64,000 nucleotides of DNA. Source: Cymbomonas tetramitiformis. Taxonomy: Eukaryota > Chlorophyta > Pyramimonadophyceae > Pyramimonadales > Pyramimonadaceae. Shown here piece after piece: positions 28,501-64,000 of the stretch. Numbering within the stretch: the first letter of the stretch is position 1; every line of letters starts with the position of its first letter. The position numbers were made by a program, and so were the translations under genes. The notes under the pieces are model-generated. The model saw only the letters and a list, made by a program, of their open reading frames with translations. It was not told the DNA's origin and did not search any database. The stretch is from contig LGRX02003641.1 in the NCBI GenBank assembly GCA_001247695.2, forward strand, positions 1 through 64,000, in the 5' to 3' direction.

Positions 28501-31500
28501 CATGAGCTTGCTGCCGAGGGCTCCCCGCGCCATGGCGTTGCGCACCATGGTCCAGGGGTGCGCCCGCTGCGTGCGGAGGAACTTGTTGGTGGCGATGTGC
28601 TTGATGCGGTACCGCTTCGTCCACGTCAAGTGCTCCCCGGACCACAGAGGCGTCACACTCTCCACCTGCCACATCCCACTCCAGGTGATACACCTCCTAC
28701 ACTGCAGAGGCGTCACACTCTCCACCTGCCACATCCCACTCCAGATGATACACCTCCTACACTGCAGAGGCGTCAGACTCTCCACATCAACACCAGGGCT
28801 AATCAGTTCTCTCCATTAAGGGTAGGCTCCAGCCAATTAGGGCAGTTTAGGGCACACTGCACTCGATGGATCGTAACTTTCACGTTACGGATCGCACCAT
28901 GATGACCAAAAGAGATTCTGAAAGGAGACAGTGTCCGCTTTCGATCGGGTCCCAGTCTCAACTCTCCGATCAAAATACTCGAAAGCTTGTACTCAATCAA
29001 ATTCACAGCTTACCACGATTTTCTGGAGAATTTTAAAATACGGGCACCGCTTGTGGGGGAAATTGGCTCCATGAGCGGAATTTTTTCGCTTAAAATATAC
29101 GAGTTGAATACTGTTTTCCACATGTCCATACAAAAGTGTAGGTCCTGATCTCAAGTTATGGGGGGGGGTTCAAGGGGGGTAATGTTTTTAGATACGCATG
29201 GGTATAACTTGAAATCGGGACCCACACTTTTGTATGGACACGTGGACATCATGATTCCAGTCGTATACTTAAGGTGAGCGAAATATAAGGTGAACGAGAA
29301 AAAAATGCCGCTCATGGAGCCAATTTTCCCCCACAAGCGGTGCCCATATTTTAAAATTCTCCAGAAAATCGTGGTAAGCTGTGAATTTGATTGAGTACAA
29401 GCTTTCGAGTATTTTGATCGGAGAGTTGAGAATGGGACCCGATCGAAAGCGGACACTGTCTCCTTTCAGAATCCCTTTTGGTCATCATGGTGCGATCGGT
29501 AACGTGAAAGTTACGATCCATCGAGTGCAGTGTGCCCTAAACTGCCCTAATTGGCTGGAGCCTATCCTTCAGCTATTTCTCTCGACTCCATGCCAGACGC
29601 GGCGGTGTCACTTCGGCAAAAGCTGTGCTAACCCTTCATATACTCGCATGCACTGCACCTTCCACATACTCGCACGGAAGATAGCATGGAGGATGGCGGA
29701 CTGGCCATGCCACCGCGCGGAGGAGGATACTCTCATTGGCTCGCCTTGCGCAGAAGCTTCACTCTCATTGGCCCGCCTTGCGCAGAGCTTCACTCTCATT
29801 GGCCCGCCTTGCATGAAGCTTCGCTCTCATCTGACCACTTTGTGCGCCAGAAGCTTCGCTCTCGTCAGGCCCGCCATGCAGCAAGCTTCGCTCGGCATCA
29901 GGCGCCTTGTGAGCTTCACTCTCATTGGCCCGCCTTGCGCAGAGCTTCACTCTCATTGGCCCGCCTTGCGCAGAGCTTCACTCTCATTGGCCCGCCTTGC
30001 GCAGAGCTTGTTGAGCACATGCTGCTGCATCAGGCACCTCATCGGAACTCAAGATGGCCACGTCAGCAGGCGCCGGGTACTCCATAGGGACTGGAGATGG
30101 CCACGTGGCGGCGCAGACTGAGCGCACCTTCCAGAAGCTGTTTGTGTTTTTGCACTGCCAGGTCGAGACTTGCGACTCGGAGGAGGAAGACAGGCCGGCG
30201 GAGCTGGTGTTGAAGTCCGGGCGGAAGTGCACATGCAGCTTGCCGCCCTCTCCGGGCTCGCACATGAGGTAGCTCGCAGACTCCCGGTGATGTATCTGAA
30301 TCACCTTGCCGCCGTGCAGGAATGCAGTGTGCTCGTCTACATGCCCCACCAAATCCTGCATAGAATCCAACGAGCACCGAAACGCAGCATCCTAAATCCA
30401 ACAGTCACTGAAACGCAAGATCCTAAACACCGTCACTGCGCGCTGCCTGCATGGTGTAAAGGGACCGCAAGCTGTAGGAGACCTCGAAGTGCCTCAAGTG
30501 GCCGGCCAGCCGGTGCCTCACTGGTGTCTAGGTGCCTCACACGGTGGGCCGGGGGGCACCTGGCTGGCATCCAGATTGCTGATGAGGAGGGAGTCATACT
30601 CCTTGATGGCCTGGAGGGCGGTGTCCTGGGCGAAAGGGTGCATCTTAAAGTGCGATGCCATGTGAGATGCGTTCAGCTCTGCCGCGTATTGAACGTATGA
30701 AGAGTCCTGAGAGCATTCCCACAAGAACCTCGGTTAGATCGCTCTACTGCAGAGTCACCATACCCCGTCAAGTCAGGCCGCTCTAGCCCCCCCTCGGGGG
30801 CCAAAGGACCGAGACTCTGCCGGGAGTGGAACCGCGAGAAACGGATTTTCAGCTAATAAGTGAAAATGTTTCCCTCCGTGTGCCAGGGTCCTCCTTTGAT
30901 AGAATCCTGAGAAGCGAGTCGGACGCACCGCTATCTTCTGTTCCCAGAAGAAGTTGTCATCTTTGGAGTCAGCTGGGGCTCGTGTCCGCAACATCTGCTG
31001 ACCTTTCCGCTGGGCGAGACTAACGTGGAAGTGCAGATCGGGAATGGAAATGCTCTGAAAGAGGATCGAGTCGCCGTATTTCACCACTTCACCGTGAGAT
31101 TTCGCCTTGAAGCCCGGCAGCACACGGAAGCAGGAGTCCACTGAGCCGTGCTCCCACAATTCAACCTTGCTCGAACTCGCATCCAGATCGGGTGTGGCCG
31201 TGGGCGCCACCGTCAAAAACTTACCGGTCACCTGGATTCCCTCAAACCCGTGCATCAGGCGGCATCGAGGCGGAACACCTTCCACTCTCAGATAGTACGC
31301 GTCACCAGTTCAGTCTTCTCGATCCGCCTCACAGGCCGCTGTCCCACAACTACTTACCAGCAGCAGATGGCGATACACAAACCATCTGTTTCCCTCAGGC
31401 ACTGCATTTGAATTTCTGGCAAGCTGCGTCTCTCGACGCTCTCGAAAGCGAGTGAGGAAGCACCTGGTGCCTGAACTGGACCACGTCACCGAACATGATC

Positions 31501-33615: not shown

Positions 33616-35345
33616 GCTATTTTGGCGACGTGGAAGGGGCGTGTCACCCCAGGAACAGCCTCGAGGCCGGGCCTTTAATTTGCCGAGGGCATGTAGCGAA
33701 TCTCTGCATGTCCCCTGGTTGCTTCAAACGACCGTTGGACCTTACATCTTCGCTGTAGATACCGAGGTTTTCTCAGACATATCCAAAATATAATTTTGTT
33801 GTTTGCGAAGAGCGGTATGTCCAACCACTCTGCTACACTTCGACTAAATAACTCTTCAGGAAAAGAAGGAACGCCATACCAGCAGGCATGCGCTACGACA
33901 ATGCCTAAAGTGTGATGGTTTCTTGCGCGGCAATTTATGCTAGGGAAACTGAAGGAGAAGTCTGTATTTTTCATGCAGCCCGACCCTTGACGACCCCTGC
34001 TTATGCGAAGACGAAGATACCCAAGCAACGGGGTCATGCACGATCCACTCTGCAAAAGAAGCACGATAATACATTCCAAGCTTCACTATTATTTGTTTTA
34101 ACTTGGGGATCCTTTCCAGATATAGCGTATGGAATGCATTTTCCACAGATGTTGCGGGGAATTTTCTCACTTCCCGAATGCATTACACGAACATCATCGA
34201 TTATGTTTTTCGCCCTTCGCCTTCGCAGTCGCAGTCGAGTGTGACTAGACTCAAGACTGTCTCGTCGCGTCGTCGCGCGTGTCTGTCGTGACATGAGAGA
34301 GAGATCTGAGATCAGATGTCGCTGCGCTGTCGCTGTCGCTGTCGTGACATCACGGCAGCGGCAGCGGCATATCGAATTGTCGATGTCGATGTCGTCATGG
34401 TCATCAGACTCAGGCCCGTCCTTAAATCTGGTTTGGAGATTACGGCCGTCGCGTCGCGTCGCGTCGCGTCGCGTCTGACCAGATTTAAGGATGAATAATT
34501 CGACACTTCCCGTCATGCTGCCCAACATTTATCGTTTACGTGGCGTCTGGATGGTGTCGTCGTGGCAACGGCAAAACAATTGCACGCAAGCTTAAACGTG
34601 AATGCAGTGTTGAAATTGACAGTGCCCCGTAAGTCGCTATCCAGCGGCTGTTGTTTTCGGGATGCTAACGTATACCAAACACAGCATTACTTTGCATATG
34701 AATTCTAATAAGTCTTAGGAACAACATGTTTTTTTTGCGCGCAAGATTCGTCCAGGATTCTGGATGCTGGACGACTCTTGTGAGGGGGGGTAATGGGCGT
34801 GATTCGAGCCAGCCATCTCGACTCACGCCCAGCAGCGACTCATACTGCACAGCATGAACATATCAGGCATATCATATGAACATACGAAATCAATTCTGAG
34901 CACCTGACAGTGCACTGTCACCTTTAGCGGAAACGCGGATGTCAACCGCGTCCACGTTTCCGCCGCGGGGCTCGAAGCGGGTGAACCAAATGACCAAATG
35001 AAACACAGATGCGCACATACAACGTTGAAAATATGTTTCAGTTGTTGCTATTAGTATTTTTTTTAGCTTTCCCTACGGCGGGATACCGAAGGGAATGCCG
35101 TTTTGCGGATGCGGTTTCCCGCTTCCGCAATTCCCGCTTCCGCCACACGAAGCGGAGAATTCGAGATCTGCTTCCAGTCACCGAATATGTGCGGGGATGC
35201 TTCCTATCGTTCATGATGCCTTCTAGTAAACATTATTTCCTTCTATTATATCGCGAATACTTCAATTTCTTCACTAATCTACCCTGCTGCACTAGGTTTT
35301 CACGGTGCTAATGCTCGGTGCTAATTAGGTCAAACGTTTGACCTA

Positions 35346-35954
35346 CAGTTCCCGCTCGTTCATAAGAAACCTTTTTTTAAGAAACCAGCCGCTGGGATTT
35401 AGAATAATAAGAAATTTCCAGCGAATACGAAAAGCGCTGGAATTTGACGATCAGAAATAAGAAAATCCAGCGTACTAGGTGCCGATAATTAAGAAATAGC
35501 TGGCGCTAATTAGCGACGTGGTTTAATTAGCTATTCGTGTGTAGTTGGAGGCTGTACCAGAACTGCGAGTAGCTTGCTCCTCTCAGAATCATACTCATCA
35601 CTGTTGATGATGTCCCTGTCAAGTAATTCCTTGAGTTTCTTTAGCGCGTCGAAAGCAAAATTTGACATGATGAAGTGATTTAAAAAAATGGAAAGTTTTC
35701 AAAAAAAACATTGTATTTGAGTTTAAAAAAAACATTGTCAGTGGTCCTTCGCATTCTGGAAATGGCTTCACATCGGATTAAGAAAATCATTGGCTGGGAT
35801 AAGAAAGTCTGTCGCTGCGGAAGTCCAAGAGTTAAGAAATTTCTTTTGAGCCCTATTCGCTGGGCGCTGGAAAATCCGGATCGGCGCGATAAGAAAGGGG
35901 GCCCGCTGGTCGCTGGATCGAAATGACCCGTTTCTTATGAACGAGCGGGCACTG
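35346..35954. mobile_element. TA-flanked CAGT-ended element with SHOCT gene (type A, copy 1)
   Basis: 609 bp. The left end TA|CAGTTCCCGCTCGTTCATAA and the reverse complement of the right end TA|CAGTGCCCGCTCGTTCATAA match for about 25 bases with one mismatch. A TA is present on both sides. Interior and ends carry many copies of TAAGAAA and CCAGCG/CGCTGG words. The reverse-complement copy of this locus (TA at 44180-44181) lacks the element cleanly. TA target duplications and CAGT ends fit pogo/Tc1-type DNA transposons. No transposase is inside. Confidence 0.85.
35531..35668 (-). CDS. 45-residue SHOCT-like protein in element type A (copy 1)
   Basis: ATG at 35666-35668, stop TAG at 35531-35533. 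The protein is almost nothing but one short domain: ALKKLKELLDRDIINSDEY is followed by SERSKLLAVL and a seven-residue PPTTHE-like tail. This fits the SHOCT pattern (two-helix module, L..LK.LLD.G.I...E[FY]...K.KLL). Here the usual glycine is Asp19. It shares about 14 of 30 aligned positions with the 119-residue protein at 62147-62506 in another TA element. SHOCT domains usually sit at the ends of larger proteins and their role is poorly known. Here the domain stands alone, with T-rich sequence upstream of the ATG. Function unknown. Confidence 0.75.
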   Translation of the reverse strand: MSNFAFDALKKLKELLDRDIINSDEYDSERSKLLAVLVQPPTTHE

Positions 35955-38425
35955 TACAAAGTGTCGCATTGCCTACGTGGAGCGTACACTTGCGTCGCAT
36001 ATCCAAGGAGCGTCCATTTATTTTATCTCCGATTTGATCTGACGAACAGTTTTCTAATTTTGCCCACGTGGAACCAAAAAAGGCGACGCAAGAGCGTCGC
36101 GTCGCGTAAATGTTGAACAAAACATCTCTGCGTAGCGTGTTACGCAAAAGATGTTTGTCCAAACATCTCCGCGACGCGACGCTCTTGCGTAACCTTTGCG
36201 TAGCGTTTTACAGTTTTCCAACCAATCAACTCGCTGAGGCCCGTCGTTAGTCCTGGTTTGGGAACTTTGTCGCGATGTCGGCATGTCGTCGTGTCGTGTC
36301 GGATGTCGCTGTCGCGTGACCAGGAACAACGATGGAATTTCTCTGGACTGCATGACGTTCCGTGCGTACGTGGCGTCCAGATTTATATTTTTTTCCCCCC
36401 ATCGGGTGGCACAAATGCCTCGATCATTGAAACGCACGTGCTAGATTCACTATTTCGCTTTTCCCCCACAAAACGCGGTCATGTCTTTTTGCCGACGTGG
36501 AACCGAAAAACCGACATTCATTACATGCATTACATTAAATGCCTGTGCGCCCTTAAAAAAGTTTTGATCTAACGATAGATTTTAAATTAACACGACATCG
36601 GTCGACAAAAACGTGACAAAATGGGTTTTGTGCACGGAAACTTCTGTCATATTTTGGGCCCTTTCGGTGTAAACCGGATCTTCCATTGCGACCATGCTAT
36701 TTTGGCGACGTGGAAGGGGCGTGTCACCCCAGGAACAGCCTCGAGGCCGGGCCTTTAATTTGCCGAGGGCATGTAGCGAATCTCTGCATGTCCCCTGGTT
36801 GCTTCAAACGACCGTTGGACCTTACATCTTCGCTGTAGATACCGAGGTTTTCTCAGACATATCCAAAATATAATTTTGTTGTTTGCGAAGAGCGGTATGT
36901 CCAACCACTCTGCTACACTTCGACTAAATAACTCTTCAGGAAAAGAAGGAACGCCATACCAGCAGGCATGCGCTACGACAATGCCTAAAGTGTGATGGTT
37001 TCTTGCGCGGCAATTTATGCTAGGGAAACTGAAGGAGAAGTCTGTATTTTTCATGCAGCCCGACCCTTGACGACCCCTGCTTATGCGAAGACGAAGATAC
37101 CCAAGCAACGGGGTCATGCACGATCCACTCTGCAAAAGAAGCACGATAATACATTCCAAGCTTCACTATTATTTGTTTTAACTTGGGGATCCTTTCCAGA
37201 TATAGCGTATGGAATGCATTTTCCACAGATGTTGCGGGGAATTTTCTCACTTCCCGAATGCATTACACGAACATCATCGATTATGTTTTTCGCCCTTCGC
37301 CTTCGCAGTCGCAGTCGAGTGTGACTAGACTCAAGACTGTCTCGTCGCGTCGTCGCGCGTGTCTGTCGTGACATGAGAGAGAGATCTGAGATCAGATGTC
37401 GCTGCGCTGTCGCTGTCGCTGTCGTGACATCACGGCAGCGGCAGCGGCATATCGAATTGTCGATGTCGATGTCGTCATGGTCATCAGACTCAGGCCCGTC
37501 CTTAAATCTGGTTTGGAGATTACGGCCGTCGCGTCGCGTCGCGTCGCGTCGCGTCTGACCAGATTTAAGGATGAATAATTCGACACTTCCCGTCATGCTG
37601 CCCAACATTTATCGTTTACGTGGCGTCTGGATGGTGTCGTCGTGGCAACGGCAAAACAATTGCACGCAAGCTTAAACGTGAATGCAGTGTTGAAATTGAC
37701 AGTGCCCCGTAAGTCGCTATCCAGCGGCTGTTGTTTTCGGGATGCTAACGTATACCAAACACAGCATTACTTTGCATATGAATTCTAATAAGTCTTAGGA
37801 ACAACATGTTTTTTTTGCGCGCAAGATTCGTCCAGGATTCTGGATGCTGGACGACTCTTGTGAGGGGGGGTAATGGGCGTGATTCGAGCCAGCCATCTCG
37901 ACTCACGCCCAGCAGCGACTCATACTGCACAGCATGAACATATCAGGCATATCATATGAACATACGAAATCAATTCTGAGCACCTGACAGTGCACTGTCA
38001 CCTTTAGCGGAAACGCGGATGTCAACCGCGTCCACGTTTCCGCCGCGGGGCTCGAAGCGGGTGAACCAAATGACCAAATGAAACACAGATGCGCACATAC
38101 AACGTTGAAAATATGTTTCAGTTGTTGCTATTAGTATTTTTTTTAGCTTTCCCTACGGCGGGATACCGAAGGGAATGCCGTTTTGCGGATGCGGTTTCCC
38201 GCTTCCGCAATTCCCGCTTCCGCCACACGAAGCGGAGAATTCGAGATCTGCTTCCAGTCACCGAATATGTGCGGGGATGCTTCCTATCGTTCATGATGCC
38301 TTCTAGTAAACATTATTTCCTTCTATTATATCGCGAATACTTCAATTTCTTCACTAATCTACCCTGCTGCACTAGGTTTTCACGGTGCTAATGCTCGGTG
38401 CTAATTAGGTCAAACGTTTGACCTA

Positions 38426-39034
38426 CAGTTCCCGCTCGTTCATAAGAAACCTTTTTTTAAGAAACCAGCCGCTGGGATTTAGAATAATAAGAAATTTCCA
38501 GCGAATACGAAAAGCGCTGGAATTTGACGATCAGAAATAAGAAAATCCAGCGTACTAGGTGCCGATAATTAAGAAATAGCTGGCGCTAATTAGCGACGTG
38601 GTTTAATTAGCTATTCGTGTGTAGTTGGAGGCTGTACCAGAACTGCGAGTAGCTTGCTCCTCTCAGAATCATACTCATCACTGTTGATGATGTCCCTGTC
38701 AAGTAATTCCTTGAGTTTCTTTAGCGCGTCGAAAGCAAAATTTGACATGATGAAGTGATTTAAAAAAATGGAAAGTTTTCAAAAAAAACATTGTATTTGA
38801 GTTTAAAAAAAACATTGTCAGTGGTCCTTCGCATTCTGGAAATGGCTTCACATCGGATTAAGAAAATCATTGGCTGGGATAAGAAAGTCTGTCGCTGCGG
38901 AAGTCCAAGAGTTAAGAAATTTCTTTTGAGCCCTATTCGCTGGGCGCTGGAAAATCCGGATCGGCGCGATAAGAAAGGGGGCCCGCTGGTCGCTGGATCG
39001 AAATGACCCGTTTCTTATGAACGAGCGGGCACTG
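38426..39034. mobile_element. TA-flanked SHOCT element, type A, copy 2
   Basis: Same 609-bp element carried along in unit copy 2. Its identity reflects the large tandem duplication, not a new insertion. Confidence 0.85.
38611..38748 (-). CDS. 45-residue SHOCT-like protein, copy 2
   Basis: Identical to the 35531-35668 gene, duplicated with the 3,080-bp unit. Confidence 0.75.
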   Translation of the reverse strand: MSNFAFDALKKLKELLDRDIINSDEYDSERSKLLAVLVQPPTTHE

Positions 39035-41505
39035 TACAAAGTGTCGCATTGCCTACGTGGAGCGTACACTTGCGTCGCATATCCAAGGAGCGTCCATTTA
39101 TTTTATCTCCGATTTGATCTGACGAACAGTTTTCTAATTTTGCCCACGTGGAACCAAAAAAGGCGACGCAAGAGCGTCGCGTCGCGTAAATGTTGAACAA
39201 AACATCTCTGCGTAGCGTGTTACGCAAAAGATGTTTGTCCAAACATCTCCGCGACGCGACGCTCTTGCGTAACCTTTGCGTAGCGTTTTACAGTTTTCCA
39301 ACCAATCAACTCGCTGAGGCCCGTCGTTAGTCCTGGTTTGGGAACTTTGTCGCGATGTCGGCATGTCGTCGTGTCGTGTCGGATGTCGCTGTCGCGTGAC
39401 CAGGAACAACGATGGAATTTCTCTGGACTGCATGACGTTCCGTGCGTACGTGGCGTCCAGATTTATATTTCTTTCCCCCCATCGGGTGGCACAAATGCCT
39501 CGATCATTGAAACGCACGTGCTAGATTCACTATTTCGCTTTTCCCCCACAAAACGCGGTCATGTCTTTTTGCCGACGTGGAACCGAAAAACCGACATTCA
39601 TTACATGCATTACATTAAATGCCTGTGCGCCCTTAAAAAAGTTTTGATCTAACGATAGATTTTAAATTAACACGACATCGGTCGACAAAAACGTGACAAA
39701 ATGGGTTTTGTGCACGGAAACTTCTGTCATATTTTGGGCCCTTTCGGTGTAAACCGGATCTTCCATTGCGACCATGCTATTTTGGCGACGTGGAAGGGGC
39801 GTGTCACCCCAGGAACAGCCTCGAGGCCGGGCCTTTAATTTGCCGAGGGCATGTAGCGAATCTCTGCATGTCCCCTGGTTGCTTCAAACGACCGTTGGAC
39901 CTTACATCTTCGCTGTAGATACCGAGGTTTTCTCAGACATATCCAAAATATAATTTTGTTGTTTGCGAAGAGCGGTATGTCCAACCACTCTGCTACACTT
40001 CGACTAAATAACTCTTCAGGAAAAGAAGGAACGCCATACCAGCAGGCATGCGCTACGACAATGCCTAAAGTGTGATGGTTTCTTGCGCGGCAATTTATGC
40101 TAGGGAAACTGAAGGAGAAGTCTGTATTTTTCATGCAGCCCGACCCTTGACGACCCCTGCTTATGCGAAGACGAAGATACCCAAGCAACGGGGTCATGCA
40201 CGATCCACTCTGCAAAAGAAGCACGATAATACATTCCAAGCTTCACTATTATTTGTTTTAACTTGGGGATCCTTTCCAGATATAGCGTATGGAATGCATT
40301 TTCCACAGATGTTGCGGGGAATTTTCTCACTTCCCGAATGCATTACACGAACATCATCGATTATGTTTTTCGCCCTTCGCCTTCGCAGTCGCAGTCGAGT
40401 GTGACTAGACTCAAGACTGTCTCGTCGCGTCGTCGCGCGTGTCTGTCGTGACATGAGAGAGAGATCTGAGATCAGATGTCGCTGCGCTGTCGCTGTCGCT
40501 GTCGTGACATCACGGCAGCGGCAGCGGCATATCGAATTGTCGATGTCGATGTCGTCATGGTCATCAGACTCAGGCCCGTCCTTAAATCTGGTTTGGAGAT
40601 TACGGCCGTCGCGTCGCGTCGCGTCGCGTCGCGTCTGACCAGATTTAAGGATGAATAATTCGACACTTCCCGTCATGCTGCCCAACATTTATCGTTTACG
40701 TGGCGTCTGGATGGTGTCGTCGTGGCAACGGCAAAACAATTGCACGCAAGCTTAAACGTGAATGCAGTGTTGAAATTGACAGTGCCCCGTAAGTCGCTAT
40801 CCAGCGGCTGTTGTTTTCGGGATGCTAACGTATACCAAACACAGCATTACTTTGCATATGAATTCTAATAAGTCTTAGGAACAACATGTTTTTTTTGCGC
40901 GCAAGATTCGTCCAGGATTCTGGATGCTGGACGACTCTTGTGAGGGGGGGTAATGGGCGTGATTCGAGCCAGCCATCTCGACTCACGCCCAGCAGCGACT
41001 CATACTGCACAGCATGAACATATCAGGCATATCATATGAACATACGAAATCAATTCTGAGCACCTGACAGTGCACTGTCACCTTTAGCGGAAACGCGGAT
41101 GTCAACCGCGTCCACGTTTCCGCCGCGGGGCTCGAAGCGGGTGAACCAAATGACCAAATGAAACACAGATGCGCACATACAACGTTGAAAATATGTTTCA
41201 GTTGTTGCTATTAGTATTTTTTTTAGCTTTCCCTACGGCGGGATACCGAAGGGAATGCCGTTTTGCGGATGCGGTTTCCCGCTTCCGCAATTCCCGCTTC
41301 CGCCACACGAAGCGGAGAATTCGAGATCTGCTTCCAGTCACCGAATATGTGCGGGGATGCTTCCTATCGTTCATGATGCCTTCTAGTAAACATTATTTCC
41401 TTCTATTATATCGCGAATACTTCAATTTCTTCACTAATCTACCCTGCTGCACTAGGTTTTCACGGTGCTAATGCTCGGTGCTAATTAGGTCAAACGTTTG
41501 ACCTA

Positions 41506-42114
41506 CAGTTCCCGCTCGTTCATAAGAAACCTTTTTTTAAGAAACCAGCCGCTGGGATTTAGAATAATAAGAAATTTCCAGCGAATACGAAAAGCGCTGG
41601 AATTTGACGATCAGAAATAAGAAAATCCAGCGTACTAGGTGCCGATAATTAAGAAATAGCTGGCGCTAATTAGCGACGTGGTTTAATTAGCTATTCGTGT
41701 GTAGTTGGAGGCTGTACCAGAACTGCGAGTAGCTTGCTCCTCTCAGAATCATACTCATCACTGTTGATGATGTCCCTGTCAAGTAATTCCTTGAGTTTCT
41801 TTAGCGCGTCGAAAGCAAAATTTGACATGATGAAGTGATTTAAAAAAATGGAAAGTTTTCAAAAAAAACATTGTATTTGAGTTTAAAAAAAACATTGTCA
41901 GTGGTCCTTCGCATTCTGGAAATGGCTTCACATCGGATTAAGAAAATCATTGGCTGGGATAAGAAAGTCTGTCGCTGCGGAAGTCCAAGAGTTAAGAAAT
42001 TTCTTTTGAGCCCTATTCGCTGGGCGCTGGAAAATCCGGATCGGCGCGATAAGAAAGGGGGCCCGCTGGTCGCTGGATCGAAATGACCCGTTTCTTATGA
42101 ACGAGCGGGCACTG
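41506..42114. mobile_element. TA-flanked SHOCT element, type A, copy 3
   Basis: Third copy carried within unit copy 3, with the same ends and TA flanks. Confidence 0.85.
41691..41828 (-). CDS. 45-residue SHOCT-like protein, copy 3
   Basis: Identical to the other two copies, duplicated with the 3,080-bp unit. Confidence 0.75.
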   Translation of the reverse strand: MSNFAFDALKKLKELLDRDIINSDEYDSERSKLLAVLVQPPTTHE

Positions 42115-42828
42115 TACAAAGTGTCGCATTGCCTACGTGGAGCGTACACTTGCGTCGCATATCCAAGGAGCGTCCATTTATTTTATCTCCGATTTGATCT
42201 GACGAACAGTTTTCTAATTTTGCCCACGTGGAACCAAAAAAGGCGACGCAAGAGCGTCGCGTCGCGTAAATGTTGAACAAAACATCTCTGCGTAGCGTGT
42301 TACGCAAAAGATGTTTGTCCAAACATCTCCGCGACGCGACGCTCTTGCGTAACCTTTGCGTAGCGTTTTACAGTTTTCCAACCAATCAACTCGCTGAGGC
42401 CCGTCGTTAGTCCTGGTTTGGGAACTTTGTCGCGATGTCGGCATGTCGTCGTGTCGTGTCGGATGTCGCTGTCGCGTGACCAGGAACAACGATGGAATTT
42501 CTCTGGACTGCATGACGTTCCGTGCGTACGTGGCGTCCAGATTTATATTTTTTTCCCCCCATCGGGTGGCACAAATGCCTCGATCATTGAAACGCACGTG
42601 CTAGATTCACTATTTCGCTTTTCCCCCACAAAACGCGGTCATGTCTTTTTGCCGACGTGGAACCGAAAAACCGACATTCATTACATGCATTACATTAAAT
42701 GCCTGTGCGCCCTTAAAAAAGTTTTGATCTAACGATAGATTTTAAATTAACACGACATCGGTCGACAAAAACGTGACAAAATGGGGTTACGTTATCTTTT
42801 TGGGAGCTACGATATCTTTCGTTTTCAG

Positions 42829-43682
42829 TCCCGTCCTTAAATCTGGTTTGGGTAAAATGAAAATTCGTCGCGTCGCGTAACTTTTGATCGCAGCGATTTG
42901 ATTGGTTGGGAAACTGTAAAGCGCTACGCAAAAGTTACGCAAGAGCGTCGCGTCGCGGAGATGTTTGGCCAAACATCTTTTGCGTAGCATGCTACGCAGA
43001 GATAATTTGTCCAACATTTACGCGACGCGACGCTCTTGCGTCGCGATTTTTGGTTCCACGTAGGCAAATTTTGAAAACTGTTCGTCAGATCAATTCGGAG
43101 ATAAAATAAATGGACGCTCCTTGGATATGCGACGCATGTGTACGCTCCACGTAGGCAGGTGCGACGCCTTCACAGATCTTTGGATAAAATTCGTCGTATA
43201 AAATACATCTCCCCCTTTCGCCGTCCCCCCCTTTGCCTTTTTTTCCCCACCGCCCCCATTAAACCCCAATTTTTTTATCCCCCCGCCCACCCCATATACA
43301 CTCCCTCCCTCTACCCTTCCCCCCTTTATCAACCCCGATTTCATCCGTCCCGCATCCCCCTTCCCTTCCACCCCCAACCCCCATCCTCCCTTATAACTCC
43401 CCACATTTCCCCCTTTCCCCCTTCCCCCGCTTGTTTCCCCCTTTCTCCCACTTTTTCGACCCAACCCCTTTTCGTTTCGGAAAATCGTGTATTTATTTTT
43501 ATACCCATTCCAGATATAATAAAACCGCGTAACCACGTCGGACGCCACGTACGCATGGGCCGTCGTGCACACAATCGCAGTACGCCGATTTATTCATCCT
43601 TAAATCTGGTCAGACGCGACGCGACGCGACGCGACGCGACGCGACTCGCGTAATCTCAAAACCAGATTTAAGGGCGGGCCCC
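42829..43682. mobile_element. Hairpin-rich MITE-like block with CCTTAAATCTGGTTT ends
   Basis: Left end CCCGTCCTTAAATCTGGTTT (about 42829) and right end AAAACCAGATTTAAGGGCGGG (about 43661-43682) are inverted. Inside are the GCGACGCGACGCTCTTGCGT hairpin (about 42935-43045), a pyrimidine-rich tract, and a further (GCGAC)n hairpin (43587-43672). No coding content. Boundaries are by eye. Confidence 0.5.
43205..43475. repeat. Pyrimidine-rich tract, about 270 bp
   Basis: The plus strand is almost wholly C and T with short A/G interruptions, largely CCCCC, CCCTT and TTTCCCC words. It is capable of triplex formation. No repeat unit is fixed. Confidence 0.85.
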
Positions 43683-43894
43683 GACATGCAGAGATATCGT
43701 AACTCCCAAAAAGATATCGTAACCCATGTCGCATGTCGGTCTGTCGCGTTTCTGTAATTTTCAACCAATCAAATCGCCGTGATCAAAAACGCGACAGACG
43801 ACGGGCCTGAGTCCCGTCCTTAAATCTGGTTTGGGTAAAATGAAATTTCGTCGCGTCGCGTAACTTTTGATCGCAGCGATTTGATTGGTTGGAA

Positions 43895-44060
43895 AACTGT
43901 AAACCGCTACGCAAAAGTTACGCAAGAGCGTCGCGTCGCGTAAATGTTGGACAAAACATCTCCGCGTAGATGTTCGGACAAACATCTTTTGCGTAACACG
44001 CTACGCGGAGATGTTTTGTCCAACATTTACGCGACGCGACGCTCTTGCGTCGCGTTTTTT
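43895..44060. repeat. Long hairpin block
   Basis: GCGTCGCGTCGCGTAAATGTTGGACAAAACATCTCCGCG (about 43928-43967) is matched by its inverse (about 44004-44042), with an extra CAAACATCTTTTGCGTAA core. The same block recurs in each 3,080-bp unit (about 36095-36215 in copy 1) and near 42935-43045. Confidence 0.7.
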
Positions 44061-45100
44061 GGTTCCACGTAGGCAAAATTAGAAAACTGTTCGTCATATC
44101 AAATCGGAGATAAAATAAATGGACGCTCCTTGGATATGCGACGCAAGTGTACGCTCCACGTAGGCAATGCGACACTTTGTAGGTCAAACGTTTGACCTAA
44201 TTAACACTGTGAAAACCTAGTGCAGCATGGTAGATTAGTGAAGAAATTGAAGTATTCGCGATATATTAGAAGGAAATAATGTTTACTTGAAGGTATCATG
44301 AACGATAGGAAGCATCCCCGCACATATTCGGTGACTGGATGCAGATCTCGAATTCTCCGCTTCGTGTGGCGGAAGCGGGAATGGCGGAAGCGGGAAACCG
44401 CATCCGCAAAACGGCATTCCCTTCGGTATCCCGCCGAAGGGAAAGCTAAAAAATACTAATAGCAACAATTGAAACATATTTTCAACGTTGTATGTGCGCA
44501 TTTGTGTTTCATTTGGTCATTTGGCGGTTCACCCGCTTCGAGCCCCGCGGCGGAAACGTGGACGCGGTTGACATCCGCGTTTCCGCTAAAGGTCACAGTG
44601 CACTGTCAGATGCTCAGAATTGATTTCGTATGTTCATATGATATGCCTGATATGTTCATGTTGTGCAGTATGAGTCGCTGCTGGGCGTGAGTCGAGATGG
44701 CTGGCTCGAATCACGCCCATTACCCCCCCTCACAAGAGTCGTCTAGCATCCAGAATCCTGGACGAATCTTGCGCGCAAAAAAAACGCGTTGTTCCTAACA
44801 CTTATTAGAATTCATATGCAAAGTGATGTTGTGTTTGGTATACGTTAGCATCCCGAAAACAACAGCCGCTGGATAGCGACTTACGGGGCACTGTCAATTT
44901 CAACACTGCATTCACGTTTAAGCTTGCGTGCAATTGTTTTGCCGTTGCCACGACGACACCATCCAGACGCCACGTAGACGATAAATGTCGGGCAGCACGA
45001 TGGGAAGTGTCGAATTATTCATCCTTAAATCTGGTCAGACGCGACGCGACGCGACGCGACGCGATGCGACGGCCGTAATCTCCAAACCAGATTTAAGGAC
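44050..45100. repeat. Diverged inverted copy of the 3,080-bp unit, without the SHOCT element
   Basis: Reverse complement of about 34430-36090 of unit copy 1, with scattered substitutions and small indels. It includes the GGTCAAACGTTTGACC palindrome, the TCAATTCTGAGCA block and the TTCACCCGCTTCGAGCCCCG block. At 44180-44181 a single TA stands where the unit carries the 609-bp element. Confidence 0.9.
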
Positions 45101-45321
45101 GGGCCTCAGAGGTCACGCGATGCGACGCGACGCGACGCGACGTGACGGGACGGGAGAAGCCGAGGCGAGGCGAGGCGAGGCGCGCCCGGCTGCGCCGGGC
45201 GCGAGGGCAAGCGAAGGGGTATATGACAAGGGACAGGGTACGGGCGCTTTGAACTTTACAAAGTCACATGCTGAGTGCATATCACGACTGCGTCTATCGC
45301 GTGAGAGACAGCGACACATTA

Positions 45322-45804
45322 CAGTTCTTGCATCATTAAATTCCTCGTTTCAAATTCTGAGGACCGCGAGTCATCGTGAGGGCACGCGCGAGGAGTTCTT
45401 GGAACTGTGACCGGAAAATTTTCCGGACATAAATCGAGGATTGAGGAGCATCGCCGTTTGCATCTTCTCACGGATGTCCCCGAAATTCGGAGTGATGAAA
45501 CGCGATCTCGCCTCACAAATTCTGAACTCGGCAGATATGAATCCACGTTCACTCCACGTGGCTCAAATTTATTCGCTTGCCCAACGCGAGGACTCCACAA
45601 AACGAGGAGAAAAGTTTGAGACACCTCCGGAGTGGCTGAAAATTTGTTCCTCGTTCCTTGTTCTGAAGATCAGTATAAATGACATATAAATTATATAAAT
45701 GGTCGCTTTTGAGGATTTAGGAATAAAGATGCAAAGTTCGCGCGCGGGCAAAATCCTCGTCCAGAATGGGATTCTGGACGAGGAAATTAATGATGCAAGA
45801 ACTG
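45322..45804. mobile_element. TA-flanked CAGT-ended element (type B)
   Basis: 483 bp with ends CAGTTCTTGCATCATTAAAT and, inverted, CAGTTCTTGCATCATTAATT, flanked by TA. It interrupts a sequence found whole in inverted form at about 58475-58656: GAGACAGCGACACA on one side and GTGACCGCAATGAACGTCG on the other join there without the element. Contains short GTCCAGAATG..CATTCTGGAC-type and GGACCG inverted words. Confidence 0.75.
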
Positions 45805-45842
45805 TAGTGACCGCAATGAACGTCGCCGGCAGCAGACGGTGA
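45699..45842 (+). CDS. Possible 47-residue small protein spanning the right end of element B
   Basis: ATG at 45699, TGA at 45840-45842. Contains KILVQNGILDEEINDAR, faintly like the SHOCT pattern (turn with Gly, then acidic helix start), but the second half (TVVTAMNVAGSRR) is read partly from flanking DNA beyond the element end. A chance frame cannot be excluded. Confidence 0.25.
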   Translation: MVAFEDLGIKMQSSRAGKILVQNGILDEEINDARTVVTAMNVAGSRR

Positions 45843-46180
45843 ACACATCGACATCGCGGACACCATTGCCGCTGCCGTTCAGGGAACATATCAACGCCCT
45901 ATGGCCGGTCTGTGGCCGTACGATGAGGGTTGTGGCCGAGGTTTGGCCGAGAGCCGAAATCGGCATTGGCCGTACGGCGTTTGTGGCTTGAGGGGCCCAA
46001 AAACTGTGTGGCCAGGCTGGCCGAAGGTGGGCCGTGACGATTTTCGATCGATAGGCGACTGTGGATATTCGTGGCCGAACGATCCAACGGTTGGTCGAAG
46101 CCTGGCCGAACAACCGGAGGTCTTAGAGAATATTCCGTTCCTATCGATAGCTACAGTGACACACACGCACTTGCTATACT
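45810..46180. other. GTGGCCG-rich low-complexity region
   Basis: Repeated TGGCCG words between element B and the hAT gene. 45808-45890 belongs to the sequence shared with 58475-58560. No gene supported. Confidence 0.5.
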
Positions 46181-53575: not shown

Positions 53576-55324
53576 ATGTGTTTAGCAGATGTGATCCGCG
53601 ACTCTATTCTGGAAGATATTCGTCTATCTCCTGCGTTTGCTATTGGGGTTGACGAGAGTACTGATATTTCTACAGTGGAGGAGATGGTGATGTATTCTTG
53701 GTACCTTAAAAACGGAATTCCTGTGACAACGTTCTTGGGTTTGCATGCTATGCCTAAGGCAGATGCGGAGTCTATCACCCGCACAATAAAGGAAACTGTC
53801 CTCAACTATGATCTTGAGGAGTCCAAATGTTTTGCTTTTGGTGGTGACGGTGCGTCTGTGATGACTGGTTGTGAATCAGGAGTGGGAGTCCGCCTTCGAA
53901 ATACCGTCGAGCCACATATGCTTGCTTTTCACTGCTTAGCACACAAATTGGCAGTGTGCACGAAATCAGCTGCTGATGGCATTGAATTCTTTGAGAACTT
54001 TGACACTATTCTGCACTCAATTTATTCCTATTTTTCTCGATCTGGTGTCCGGAAAAAAAGCTTTTTAGATATTCAGAAGGCACTGGGTTTTGAGTCAGTG
54101 ATTGGGATAGCTAAAGACTGCCAGACACGTTGGTTATCCAAGGGATTTTCCGTCGAGTCTGTTTATGACACGCTTCCTGTTCTGGTAGAAGAGTTTCGAA
54201 GCTCTGCAGCGCATAGTGATATTGCGAAAACTTTGCTTTCGCATGTTACCTCTGTCGAGTTTTTGGGAACTCTGTGCTTTTATAAAGATATATTGCACAA
54301 GCTGAACCTCTTAAGCAAGTGTTTCCAAGCTGACAATATTGACTTTGAGGTTGCAGCAGACCTGATACAGGGCACTCGTGTTGGCTTGGAAGCTTATTAC
54401 ATGGCTAGTGCCAAGCCAGGAGGTACTGCGTTCAAGACGTTTCTGCGAGCTATGGACCGCCAAGAGCAGGGTAAAAACACTTTCGCATACCCGCACCCTG
54501 AAGGTGATATTGACGTTATTGTGAATACAGACTGTCTGGAGACCCTTTTTATGAATATCAAGTTATTTACTACCACCTTACATTCAGAGTTGGGTGACCG
54601 TTTTCCTTCGCAGCCTTTGATGTCGGCACTTGATATTTTTAGTCCCAAGAAGTTTCCTCGAGAGCAGGCGCATTTATCTAATTATGGGGAGGATACGCTA
54701 GAGACCCTTATCGAGCATTATTCCGAACAAGTATATGATGGCTTTGAATTTCCTGCGCCGATCTCAAATGCGGACAAAATTCGAGAACAGTGGGACAGCT
54801 TGAAAACTGTGTTGTTCTCTGGGAAATTTTGGGAACAGTCGTATCAGGATTTTTGGACGCCTTACTTGGTTGGTCCCGCAAAAGAATATGAAGATATTAT
54901 GTTTTTTGTTTGTATTCGTAGCATTTTGCCATTGAATACAGCATGTTGTGAGCGGGGGTTTTCTCGAATGAAGCTCATCAAAACGTACCTGCGGAACAGA
55001 ATGCTCGATACCACTTTATCTGCTTTGATGTTGATCAGTATTAATGGGCCGGAAACATGTGATAAGGTTGCAGTGCACGATATTTGTTACAGAGCGTATT
55101 TGAAATGGGAAACGGTGAAGAAGCGCTCAGCTCAGAAATCTTGCCACAAGCAGAGACAGAAGCAACACTACAAAGGGAAAGTTATTTCACGGTCCAAAGT
55201 AGCTGTCCCAAGTATAATGCTCAGTGGGTTCCTGGATAATATCGACAGAGAGGCCACATACGATACGGGTGCAGATGGCAGTACTGCTCCCCAGAGTGGT
55301 ATTTCAGATAACATCGAGTCATGA
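53576..55324 (+). CDS. hAT-superfamily transposase core and dimerisation domain
   Basis: 582 codons, intact. The RNase H-like core shows VDESTD at residues 25-30 (first catalytic Asp), GGDGASVMTG at 89-98 (second Asp region) and HCLAHKLAV from 119. The conserved C-terminal hAT dimerisation region begins at about residue 456 with CCERGFSRMKLIKTYLRNRM and ends in ALMLISING. This is the ZNF862/KIAA1586-like branch of hAT, often annotated DUF4371. The N-terminal zinc finger is missing from this frame and lies at 46.3-47.7 kb. The annotated ATG is therefore probably internal; reading upstream is open only to a TGA a few codons earlier. The tail (residues about 520-582) is basic, then acidic. It ends at a TGA that overlaps the frame of the next gene. 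Confidence 0.85.
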   Translation: MCLADVIRDSILEDIRLSPAFAIGVDESTDISTVEEMVMYSWYLKNGIPVTTFLGLHAMPKADAESITRTIKETVLNYDLEESKCFAFGGDGASVMTGCESGVGVRLRNTVEPHMLAFHCLAHKLAVCTKSAADGIEFFENFDTILHSIYSYFSRSGVRKKSFLDIQKALGFESVIGIAKDCQTRWLSKGFSVESVYDTLPVLVEEFRSSAAHSDIAKTLLSHVTSVEFLGTLCFYKDILHKLNLLSKCFQADNIDFEVAADLIQGTRVGLEAYYMASAKPGGTAFKTFLRAMDRQEQGKNTFAYPHPEGDIDVIVNTDCLETLFMNIKLFTTTLHSELGDRFPSQPLMSALDIFSPKKFPREQAHLSNYGEDTLETLIEHYSEQVYDGFEFPAPISNADKIREQWDSLKTVLFSGKFWEQSYQDFWTPYLVGPAKEYEDIMFFVCIRSILPLNTACCERGFSRMKLIKTYLRNRMLDTTLSALMLISINGPETCDKVAVHDICYRAYLKWETVKKRSAQKSCHKQRQKQHYKGKVISRSKVAVPSIMLSGFLDNIDREATYDTGADGSTAPQSGISDNIES

Positions 55325-59884: not shown

Positions 59885-61784
59885 CTATGTCCTTGATCCC
59901 TCCAAGAAGTCGGCCGTTGGGTCGAGAATGACCGCGGTCTCCATGCACGGATGTGGTACAATAACAACCTGCTGTTCTACTCTATTGGCTAATTATATGA
60001 ATGGCTCCATGTTGTCAAAGGCCGCGCGGTCTACGTGCGGGTTGAAGGTATAGACCGTCTTGGTCAAGTTATCCGGGCCGAGAATGGAGTGACGTCGACG
60101 GTACTCCTTGATCTGTTCGTCGGTCGGCTTAGCGAACCAATCGCATTTCAGTAAGATGTAGACCTTTCCTGCAATCTCCACCCGCAATATTCTCGTAATA
60201 CGGCCGTGCCTGCATATCACCAAGCCCACGATTGTGTAAACAGCTAAGTTAGTATGTCGTTAGGACATTATGCGCATCCTAATCGAGTCATAACGACATC
60301 CTAAAGACATGTTAAAGGTAGAATAGTGCGTGCTCCTTTCTCACCTTGCCACGGATTTTGGCTCACCGTGCTCGTCCACTTCCTCACTCGCAAAGAAAGT
60401 GCGAAAGTAGCTGTGTACGGTGCGCTTGTTCCGATCGGTCGTAGCCGTGCGGTAATCAGCGTCGCCGATCTTGACGTGCGTGAAGTTATAGCAAACCGGT
60501 GTCGGCCCCGCCATGAGCAACATCTCGTACTTGGTGAACTGTCGGCCCAACCATTCCGTAGGATCCGCGTACGCTCCAAATGGGGGCTCGCGTATGTGCT
60601 CAGGTTTGCCCTCCCTTGCACACACCGCGTTCCGGTACTTCTTGTTTCGCAGTCGCATCTGTACATTCCAACTATGCACAGCGATACGATACCGTTAGTA
60701 CTTTAGGCGCGTCCTAAATATGCAACAACGGCGTCATAAGGGCATAAACAACCGCTCGGGGAATGGGGCCACAAATCACCTGCGCGCGTCTTCCACATAC
60801 TTCTCCCACTTCTCCACCAGCTCTCGATAAGCCGGCAATTCAGTCCGCATCCAAACTTTCAAGGCCTTAATGTCGTCATCTCGCAAGACCACACGTTTCC
60901 CCCTAGCCGATACCTCAACCGCAATTGCCCCGCGGCTCCCCATGGTCACGGCCGCCGGCATCCGGGTGGAGTGGTCTTCCGAAATGAAAGTGATTAACCC
61001 ACGCACCAAATGCAACACCTTCACCCGCTTGATGCAGTTCATTATGGCTGGAACGGGTAGGGAGTTGCTCCTCGCTAGGCTTTTGATGTGACCGTTCAAG
61101 GACTCGAAGGCGTACATCCATACCTCCCGCATGGGACCATACTTCTCAAGTTGTTGGACGAAGTGAGAAAACATGTGAGTGTTAATCACACACCAAGCAT
61201 ACGCTGGCCCGGTCGCCTCCAACTCCTCGAAAAATGACTTGATTTCTTGTGCGAGTGGCTCCATATCCTGCACGTACGCAGCAATTCGTTAGGGCCCGTA
61301 TGATGTACGAAGCATGTTAACGGCATCATAACATCATACTAACTATATCCTAACCGTTTACCTTAGGACGCACTTGTGTCGTCGTGATCTCCCGCACGAT
61401 CGTGGTCATTTTACCCACTAGCTTGGCCAATCGATTGGCGGGCTGCCCTTCATCTCGTGGCCAAGCGCAGACTGTCGACAAGATACTGTTTTGCACGAGC
61501 TTCAAGCCGTCGTGAGCCCGAATGTGCTTGGCGGCGTTCTTATCGGCGGTAGTTTGCAACAATCGTTTGTGGCCACGCCCCCATCTTTCCACCGCCCTTA
61601 TGCTCTTCAAGAAACTGCGCGCTGTCTCCAAGCTTCGCTTCGTGGTAGACCTTCTGTCAGGGCGGGGTGGAATCGCGAAAGGTCCGTGATTCATCTTGTA
61701 CATCAATACCTCCTTACCTGCGTCACATTATTTGAACTGAGTATGCCGTTAGTACCCCTTCGTGACACCGATAACACGTGGTTA

Positions 61785-62896
61785 CAGTAAAGACCGGTAT
61801 ATAAGAAGCCGGGGAAATTTTGCCAGCGGCTGGCTTCTTAATCGACGGTCATGGATTTGCCTTTGCCAGCGTGGGCACGTTTCTTAATTTGGCAAAATCC
61901 TGACCATCGGAAATCCAAATCCAGCGTGTGCCGCTTCTTAAATCGGCAAAATTTTCTGATTCCAGATTCGCCAACGTGATCCAGCGCTCAGCTTCTAATC
62001 TTGGGGGTCCAACTTCTGACTGTCGACCAGCGTCGAAGTTCTTAATTTCGGCTTTTAAAACCCAGAAACCGACACACAGACTTGTAGACCCAGCGGTGAC
62101 TTCTTATTTCAGGTGTATTTCTTGGAGCTCACAGAGCTCTTGTAGGATGGATCCAGCAGTGAAGGCTTCTTTGCAGCAATTGAAGCAGCTGTTAGACCGC
62201 GGTGAAATTAGCAGTTCCGACTTCAAAGCCGAGAAAAGCAAGCTATTGTCACTCGCGGGCGGATTTGTATACGCCCTGACAAACGCGATTCAATCCGAGT
62301 TAAAAGAGCTGGCAGAATTTTTAGCGCTTGAAATATTAGACACCTCTGAGTATGTCGCACAGAAGCGCAACGTTTTGGACGGAACAGTGTCCAAGACACA
62401 GGACATTCCAGCACTCACCAGTGATGCTCAGCAGTCAGAGATTACTTTCGAAGTCGAGACGCATAAGACCGCCCACAACCGATACCATGCCATGATGCAT
62501 ACGTAATGAGAATACTTATTGTGTACCTTCAGTACTGCATATGCATTGTGCTTGTGATCATCCAAAACTTCTCAAGTGTATTGAACCTTAATAATGGTTG
62601 CATTCTTCGAAGTATAGATATACATATATACATATAGATATATATCGATACGTTGTATACGATTAATTGAGAACGAGTTCACTGGATCGATATTCATGAT
62701 ACGGCTTCTTAAATCGATCATTTTAATGTAGCCTCTTCTCGAAATTCCAGCGGTATAGCTTCTTAAAATGACATTTTTTCTATCGCCATCCGTTTTTTTC
62801 CCAGCGGCTGGCTTCTTAGCCGGCTTCTTAATTTTTGGGCAAAAAGCCAGCGGCTGGCTTCTTATAGCCGAGCTTCTTATATACCGGTCTTTACTG
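61785..62896. mobile_element. TA-flanked CAGT-ended element with SHOCT gene (type C)
   Basis: 1,112 bp. Both ends read TA|CAGTAAAGACCGGTATATAAGAAGC inward (right end inverted), a perfect 25-base terminal repeat. TA lies on each side (61783-61784 and 62897-62898). Next to both ends are arrays of CCAGCGGCTGGCTTCTTA-like words. Without it the host intron of the CACTA gene (62948-61723) would be about 110 bp, the size of its other introns. CAGT ends with TA duplication fit the pogo/Tc1 group. No transposase inside. Confidence 0.9.
62147..62506 (+). CDS. 119-residue protein with one clear and one weak SHOCT-like module
   Basis: ATG at 62147 was chosen over an open-frame start at 61928 because the upstream part is element repeat sequence and likeness begins at MDPAVKASL. 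Residues about 8-37 (SLQQLKQLLDRGEISSSDF, then AEKSKLLSLAG) fit SHOCT closely, with the conserved Gly, Ile-Ser turn, aromatic and K.KLL. Residues about 51-79 (ELKELAEFLALEILDTSEY, then AQKRNVLDG) look like a second, weaker copy. The rest is polar and may be disordered. It is the only gene in the element. Compared with the 45-residue protein of element A it is longer but shares the first module. Function unknown; roles in binding a partner or transposase are speculation. Confidence 0.75.
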   Translation: MDPAVKASLQQLKQLLDRGEISSSDFKAEKSKLLSLAGGFVYALTNAIQSELKELAEFLALEILDTSEYVAQKRNVLDGTVSKTQDIPALTSDAQQSEITFEVETHKTAHNRYHAMMHT

Positions 62897-63438
62897 TAAT
62901 ACACTATCGGCACGTTATGCACATCCTAAGACGTGCATATTTGCCTACCTTGAGCATTCTTCACCTTGGTTGTGGCATGCCACGTGGGATGGACACCGTC
63001 CGCTTTCGCTTGCTGGCGGAGGGCGTCGTTGAAGTCGACCCCGAGCAAGGTTGCAGCGATTCTGTTCACCAGGTTCATGATGCCATGCATGCCATCTAGG
63101 ATGATATCACGGTAGATCTTGAAGTAAACCAACCGAGTAAAAACGCTCGAGAACTTGACGCCCGTATTCCGCATGCTCTCCTCCAAGGTCGCTCCCGAAA
63201 GTTCGGGGTCTCCGCTATCTCGCAGATCTTCATGCATTGCGGCATGACGCTTGTACTCGGCGTCCGTGCGCAACGGTGGAGTGCCTAGACCGAAGAGAAA
63301 ACAAAGTAATCAGCAAACACTCATTTACACCACATGCATTATACGGTTAGCACGCCTTTAGGCTTTTAAGTACATTCTAACGCCAACCTAACGACGTGCT
63401 ACTAGCATACCTGGCGGATTTTGCTTGCTGAAGAGGTA

Positions 63439-64000
63439 CAGTAATCACTCACCAATAAGAAAGTCCTAAATTTGGGGTCAGCCAGCGAATTTCGTCAAGT
63501 TGTGCCCCTCCCCCCCCCCGCCAGCGCCAGCGACCTATGAAATTGCTAAGAATAAGAAATCCCGATTTCGTAGCTCAGCCAGCCGATTTCTTATTCTTAT
63601 TACTTAAGGAGGAGGCAGCCAGCTATCATGAAATTGGCACTCAGCGACGGCCACAGTAGTAAAATTTTAGTATGGATCCTGCTAGCCGTAACTCACTTTT
63701 CGCCGACAAGCCAGCGTTTGCACCTCCGTTCGAAAAAAATCAATAGTCTGTATGATATTTTTATTGAGATAAATTGAGTACAACCATCAAAATCCTTGTT
63801 AAATCGAGTAAACCCAACAAATAATCCAGCCAAAATTTCTTAAGTAGCTTTCACTATGATTCAAGCCAGCCAGCCCCTCGATTTCTTATTTTGGCCAATT
63901 TCTTAAGAAATTAAAGCTAGCCAGAAATTTCGTCAAGTTGTGACCCCCCACCCCAAACGCTGACTGGTTTCTTATTGCTATTATTTCTTATTATTGGTGA
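63439..64000. mobile_element. TA-flanked CAGT-ended element (type D), cut by the window edge
   Basis: Starts TA|CAGTAATCACTCACCAATAAGAAA at 63437-63439. The window ends in TTTCTTATTATTGGTGA, the start of the inverted copy, so the element is about 570-580 bp. It has the same CCAGC / TAAGAAAT word style as types A and C. A 24-codon frame at 63673 starts MDPA as in the type C protein but has no SHOCT pattern, possibly a remnant. Confidence 0.75.

Follow-up and report, generated by a model that had tools for sequence, protein, structure and literature searches.

Short TA-flanked elements with subterminal arrays in Cymbomonas tetramitiformis, two of which carry a small SHOCT-domain gene

Small non-autonomous transposable elements are usually regarded as gene-free parasites. 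A preliminary description of a stretch of 64,000 nucleotides from the green alga Cymbomonas tetramitiformis (positions 1 to 64,000 of contig LGRX02003641.1; hereafter ‘the window’) singled out two transposon-like elements, A and C, that seemed to carry one gene each, encoding a SHOCT-type microprotein. This introduces the question of why the same small domain should be found in two elements with different ends: whether it serves the element, was picked up as a passenger, or is what remains of a transposase. To answer this, we analyzed A, C and a third element of the window, D (Table 1).

Ends, target sites and arrays of the elements

Element C begins with CAGT (61785) and finishes with ACTG (62896), with TA on both flanks. 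Counting from one base outside each TA, its ends form an inverted repeat that is complementary at 28 of 28 nt, and they were also perfectly matched (26/26) in a scan for inverted repeats, where those of A matched at 25 of 26 positions. The sequence and the scan thus confirm the coordinates, CAGT...ACTG ends and TA duplications first proposed for C and A, the empty-site evidence for TA duplication being confined to A.

Table 1. Elements, genes and arrays, with positions in the window
Feature	Position	Strand	Evidence
TA target duplication left of element C	61783..61784		sequence
Left terminal inverted repeat of C, CAGTAAAGACCGGTATATAAGAAGC	61785..61809		inverted-repeat comparison
Left array of C, CCAGCG...TTCTTA	61823..62106	+	motif counts, spacing
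SHOCT gene of C, 119 aa	62147..62506	+	PF09851 34.2 bits; CYMTET_56464 98% identical
Right array of C, CCAGCG...TTCTTA, direction same as left	62706..62879	+	motif counts, spacing
Right terminal inverted repeat of C	62872..62896		inverted-repeat comparison
TA target duplication right of element C	62897..62898		sequence
Element A, copy 1, TA at 35344-35345 and 35955-35956; arrays mostly TTCTTA on minus strand	35346..35954	-	inverted-repeat scan, copy comparison, motif counts
SHOCT gene of A, 45 aa	35531..35668	-	PF09851 30.2 bits
Element A, copy 2, identical	38426..39034	-	scan, copy comparison
Element A, copy 3, identical	41506..42114	-	scan, copy comparison
Paralogous site without A, ...CGTTTGACC-TA-CAAAGTGTCG..., single TA at 44180-44181	44165..44203	-	comparison with inverted partial repeat copy
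Element D, third kind of end (CAGTAATCACTCACCAATAAGAAA), TA at 63437-63438; outermost right-end bases beyond window	63439..64000	+	sequence, motif counts
Remnant frame of D, 24 aa, MDPASRNSLFADK..., like start of C protein	63672..63746	+	frame comparison

The three copies of A (TA at 35344, 38424 and 41504) showed no differences over 613 nt. They lie, one per unit, in a 3,080-bp unit that is repeated three times in tandem (approximately 33545-42791). Units 1 and 2 differ at one base; the third stretch of this comparison overran the end of the block, so that its 118 differences should not be taken at face value. Beside the tandem block lies a partial copy in inverted orientation (about 42800-45900), which, around the site of A, matches the repeat over 912 nt at 96% on one flank, over 219 nt at 97% on the opposite flank, and in one more piece. 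Here the empty site reads ...CGTTTGACC-TA-CAAAGTGTCGC..., whereas the filled site reads ...GTTTGACC-TA-CAGT...ACTG-TA-CAAAGTG.... Two TAs are therefore found with the element and one without it, which is direct evidence that A inserted at a TA and duplicated that TA. Precise excision of the element from the inverted copy is a less likely explanation.

The surroundings of C contain separate minus-strand frames (60341-63273) that may form one DUF4218-like gene, possibly of CACTA type. When four minus-strand frames around C were compared with Pfam, one matched DUF4218 at 17.1 bits. Because this score lies below the cut-off of 27, a CACTA-like host element around C is a suggestion only. By eye, the rejoined flanks of C could form an intron of a minus-strand gene, and C seems to be placed within an intron of the DUF4218-like gene. 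Element D begins 166 bases past the outermost frame of the same gene.

We then counted the array motifs of the elements. Counted over both strands of the window, TTCTTA has 64 occurrences; shuffled sequences have a mean of 20.6, and 0 of 100 reached 64. For CCAGCG, the count is 76 and the shuffle mean 45.8 (0 of 100 shuffles as high). Both counts are inflated by the three A copies, which are tandem duplicates. The TAAGAA/CCAGCG arrays that had been reported for A and C are thus present, with window counts above those of all 100 shuffles. On the strand of the gene, TTCTTA outnumbers TAAGAA 11:1 (C) and 9:1 (A), so that the arrays flanking the gene share one direction and the gene lies on their TTCTTA strand in both elements. 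The lone TAAGAA exception lies, in each of the two, within the left end itself, and the final TTCTTA of the right array of C falls inside the right inverted repeat. In D, the ratio on the strand of the remnant frame is less one-sided (7:4).

Only short matches were found between the DNA of A and that of C. The best of them is the array unit, CCAGCGGCTGG(C or T)TTCTTA, with 19 of 20 nt identical (E 1.6e-4). We also analyzed the spacing of the two motifs. TTCTTA follows CCAGC by 11-16 nt, a range chosen after the spacings were known, at eight of the 11 sites in C (0 of 5,000 random placings), more weakly at three of the eight sites in A (82 of 5,000), and at two of the nine sites in D, which is not significant (505 of 5,000). 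Neither the ends of C and A nor the array unit common to both had a match in IMG/VR.

The SHOCT gene and its products

For the SHOCT fit, the preliminary description had named the lack of a profile match as grounds for rejection. Against PF09851, whose curated Pfam cut-off is 27 bits, the product of C scored 34.2 bits (E 1.9e-8, residues 8-34 of 119) and that of A 30.2 bits (E 3.5e-7, residues 7-34 of 45), so that both lie above the cut-off. When multiplied by the 1,922 frames of the window (stop to stop, at least 20 aa), the match of A still amounts to about 7e-4. A profile made from A and C and run against the same frames recovered only C and the three copies of A; the next best frame had an E-value of 1.2. 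Each element also has the single small gene ascribed to it, of 45 aa in A and 119 aa in C. The domain is N-terminal in the C protein, and the A protein is too short to tell its position.

Over the SHOCT stretch, the two products are identical at 14 of 29 residues, close to the figure of about 14 of 30 given earlier, and positive at 25 of 29. At the DNA level, they use the same codon at seven of the 29 positions, with saturated silent sites (pS 0.95) and a pN of 0.33. When an equal number of changes was placed randomly, at least 14 identities were retained in four of 5,000 trials, and in a second set of 5,000 the observed similarity score was never reached. The stretch is more alike as protein than as DNA. 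The difference between pS and pN fits purifying selection, and the constraint may predate entry of the gene into the elements; the comparison covers one domain of only 29 codons, in a stretch picked for its matching residues. The low dN/dS that had been put forward as a check is therefore seen between the A and C families over these 29 codons, a comparison that fits constraint wherever it acted, and the identical A copies are uninformative.

The frame of the C gene has no stop from 61904 onward, and the longest open frame of C, which holds the gene, spans 200 codons from stop to stop, a length equalled in one of 1,000 base shuffles. In codon usage, this frame was favored over the other five, whether the gene was taken whole or in either of its two parts, whereas the frame of A was neutral. 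We gave this test little weight because, of the five long open frames used for training, four have no Pfam match at E 0.01 and the fifth has matches only below the cut-offs.

The C protein is identical at 117 of 119 residues (98%) to CYMTET_56464, a hypothetical protein of C. tetramitiformis that one source labels as a SHOCT domain-containing protein. Judging from the two differences, the copy in the window may be a second copy, an allele or the product of another assembly. We also considered the possibility that the frames are open by chance and merely resemble SHOCT. The shortness of A (45 codons) and its neutral codon usage would agree with this, but two matches above a curated cut-off, saturated silent sites with conserved residues and the near-identical protein on record all argue against it. 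We consider chance frames very improbable and rejected them.

Another protein record, P0002, joins the first 26 residues of C to an unrelated tail; the N-terminal segment of C can therefore be shuffled. Among 5.8 billion proteins, P0002 retrieved only itself and P0001 at E 0.01, and the A protein retrieved no candidate relative. A search for relatives of the C protein in IMG/VR and the GTDB genomes gave 4, 288 and 75 pattern matches, none of which was confirmed, and a comparison with solved structures gave none. In NCBIfam, C had one match far under the cut-off and A had none; in PHROGs, there were matches to families of unknown function, the best at 27.8 bits (A); in Rfam, nothing matched at the gathering score.

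With regard to other protein families, Pfam matches above the cut-off were limited to SHOCT and, for C, the gas-vesicle protein GvpG (33.5 bits, cut-off 30.6), and included no transposase family. We rejected GvpG as the same SHOCT-like signal under another name because the match is confined to positions 32-62 of the 67 in the profile and A reaches a score of 13.9. The matches to DMAP_binding and Coatomer lie under their cut-offs and were likewise set aside. A second SHOCT repeat in C, seen by eye at about residues 52-78, scored 1.0 bit with a home-made profile and was dropped, C having one SHOCT stretch at E 1. TnpB/Fanzor families did not occur among the Pfam matches of the A and C products up to E 1.

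Possible origin and role of the gene

Element D bears on how closely gene and element belong together. Its right side, up to the edge of the window, closely resembles the inner portion of the CAGTAATCACTCACCAATAAGAAA end, apart from a 3-nt insertion. No frame of D matched the profile of A and C, which was run against window frames of at least 20 aa. The remnant frame starts with MDPASRNSLFADK and the C protein with MDPAVKASLQQLK, and the two starts are identical at seven of 13 residues. Among 1,557 starts in the window, C itself excepted, the first 13 residues of D gave the best match to the start of C, and two of 3,000 shuffles of D matched it equally well. D may therefore be a decayed relative. 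Because D has arrays and ends without SHOCT, it also counts against a strict need for the domain. The repeated pairing of domain and element type that was first noted thus holds, with two families and a remnant start in a third, while the function for the element that was drawn from it is an inference only.

Our preferred explanation, which we put forward tentatively as a possible one, is that the three elements form one structural group of short, non-autonomous DNA transposons, and that A and C keep a SHOCT protein with an accessory or regulatory role. Members of this group would share CAGT ends flanked by a duplicated TA, an inward TAAGAA, and CCAGCG and TTCTTA arrays. CAGT ends are usual for the IS630-Tc1-mariner superfamily. 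Since the element ends and the TA duplication fit such an enzyme, A, C and D may be moved in trans by an IS630-Tc1-mariner-like transposase encoded elsewhere. The SHOCT gene would be retained because its product helps the element, and D would have lost the domain and rely on borrowed proteins.

As to what this help would be, the likeliest role, which we again propose only as a possibility and by analogy, is that of a small helical accessory protein or regulator that acts on the arrays or on a protein bound to them. It might aid synapsis or damp excision, in the manner of TNPA at the subterminal repeats of CACTA elements; the analogy is drawn because TNPA binds those repeats. TNPA is required for transposition and can also be a suppressor (PMC2613891, available text). 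That the SHOCT protein itself would bind the arrays is a guess.

An alternative is Pack-TYPE capture, in which parts of a SHOCT gene, from the host or from a foreign source, travel as passengers without a role in transposition. Pack-TYPE elements, including Mariner ones, have been described in plants (PMC8903248), and SHOCT, a short domain joined to many partners in 63 architectures (PMC3581485), would be a suitable passenger, as the union of the first 26 residues of C with the unrelated tail of P0002 might illustrate. However, capture would need two events that took the same domain and gave it the same orientation with respect to the arrays, and it sits poorly with the common start of C and D. 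The protein and GTDB searches found no closer donor gene, a result of little weight because the host genome lies outside those searches. We therefore regard capture as somewhat doubtful.

The gene could also be left over from an internal deletion. A full-length parent would then have had SHOCT as the head, or first exon, of its transposase, and the truncated product might be a repressor, as is KP in the case of the Drosophila P element. The domain starts within the first eight residues of both the A and C proteins, D retains this start and little more, and P0002 presents the same head on another tail, all of which would be expected of a remnant. On the other hand, the A and C products carry no transposase family in Pfam, and each of the three elements has ends of its own, so that one head would have to be common to three parents. 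This origin seems unlikely to us.

It is also conceivable that the benefit of the gene to the element lies outside transposition, in an effect on the host or on rivals such as endogenous viral elements. Targets would abound, given that the long-read assembly of Cymbomonas has 68.3% interspersed repeats and many endogenous viral elements (PMC10675990, available part). However, no pointer to a target was found in the sequence, and we consider action of this kind improbable.

A stronger version of our preferred explanation is that these elements form an undescribed eukaryotic TA/CAGT transposon group in which the SHOCT microprotein is a standing, selected part that recognizes the arrays or an array-bound transposase and controls transposition. 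We hold this stronger version to be doubtful. If it is true, then non-autonomous copies bring their own regulator and borrow the catalyst, and SHOCT would have its first defined role in mobile DNA. Should the microprotein be a selected part, miniature elements would be able to bring their own control gene, and array and protein would constitute a compact, testable system with a possible biochemical role for SHOCT.

Relation to known elements and other features of the window

TA duplication, inverted repeats and CAGT ends are common to A, C, the IS630-Tc1-mariner elements and their miniature derivatives. In contrast to these, A and C have no transposase in the element, have arrays beside the ends and carry a SHOCT gene. 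The closest parallel that we found for a sole accessory gene is SPu-1, which has 33-bp terminal inverted repeats, putative TA duplications and a single ORF for the accessory protein Fanzor; in another old family, CMe-1A, persistently open frames were read as a hint of function (PMC3627910, available part). Like A and C, SPu-1 combines terminal inverted repeats and putative TA duplications with one frame that is not a DDE transposase. Its gene, however, encodes a 633-aa TnpB-like protein, whereas those of A and C encode SHOCT proteins of 45 or 119 aa, and the available part of that report mentions no arrays for SPu-1 (PMC3627910).

Pack-TYPE elements are also non-autonomous and carry coding DNA, and the Mariner ones have TA duplications (PMC8903248, available part). 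A and C differ from them in having the same domain in two element families and no known donor gene. Given the Fanzor gene of SPu-1 (PMC3627910) and the Pack-TYPE elements (PMC8903248), the initial statement that small non-autonomous elements normally carry no genes or a remnant transposase was too strong.

The CACTA elements En/Spm and Tgmt* resemble A and C in having short-motif arrays close to the ends, G+C-rich in one part of the motif and A+T-rich in another, and they encode a DNA-binding helper, to which the SHOCT protein would correspond by analogy (PMC2613891). However, A and C end in CAGT and not CACTA, and they duplicate TA, whereas the duplication of Tgmt* has 3 bp; the size of TNPA is 67 kd, and the available text of that report makes no mention of a SHOCT domain (PMC2613891). 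The comparison is meant as an analogy, and we do not claim CACTA membership.

According to the available text of the founding paper, SHOCT is mostly bacterial, with 19 eukaryotic species, and predominantly C-terminal, which is a tendency and not a requirement (PMC3581485); that of C lies near the N-terminus. The same paper left the function of the domain open. It offered nucleic acid binding as one hypothesis only, and its own test did not support oligomerization or self-association. The string ‘transpos’ has no occurrence in it (PMC3581485).

As far as we have seen, the kind of element is already known and the SHOCT cargo is new. The former follows from SPu-1, with its putative TA duplications and a non-DDE Fanzor as its sole gene. 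Thus, of the original claim that no such family had been described, the part on TA-flanked elements with an accessory gene alone does not stand, and the part on the SHOCT cargo appears to. In the open literature, which leaves out most subscription journals, no title among the ‘SHOCT domain’ papers concerned transposons. SHOCT and transposase occurred together there only in a Mycobacterium abscessus paper, available in part, and pairing SHOCT with transposon terms gave no occurrence of SHOCT among the matches listed. The main text of the Cymbomonas genome paper contains neither SHOCT nor mariner (PMC10675990). Searches of the open literature for mariner in prasinophytes or algae, subterminal repeats and miniature-element microproteins gave nothing specific beyond PMC3627910 among the matches listed.

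The window also holds CAGT/TA elements with other ends, at 42369-42918 (TACAGTTTTCCAACC...) and 45320-45806 (TACAGTTCTTGCATC...), which contain no TTCTTA/TAAGAA and no SHOCT frame. The former, a complete element of this second CAGT/TA kind, has its first 420 nt in common with stretches at 36209 and 39289. A frame of 582 aa at 53576-55321 resembles a hAT transposase, with matches to DUF4371 and Dimer_Tnp_hAT that are both under the cut-offs. Four long minus-strand frames (10552-24888) had no Pfam match at E 0.01. A minus-strand frame at 30776-31285 matches Ins145_P3_rec at 35.3 bits (cut-off 23) and, together with neighboring minus-strand frames back to approximately 10549, makes up an inositol trisphosphate/ryanodine receptor-like gene. 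Finally, a long inverted repeat that starts with TA at 28823-29564 has exact arms of 66 nt and, further inward, 65 nt, and looks like a hairpin or foldback element.
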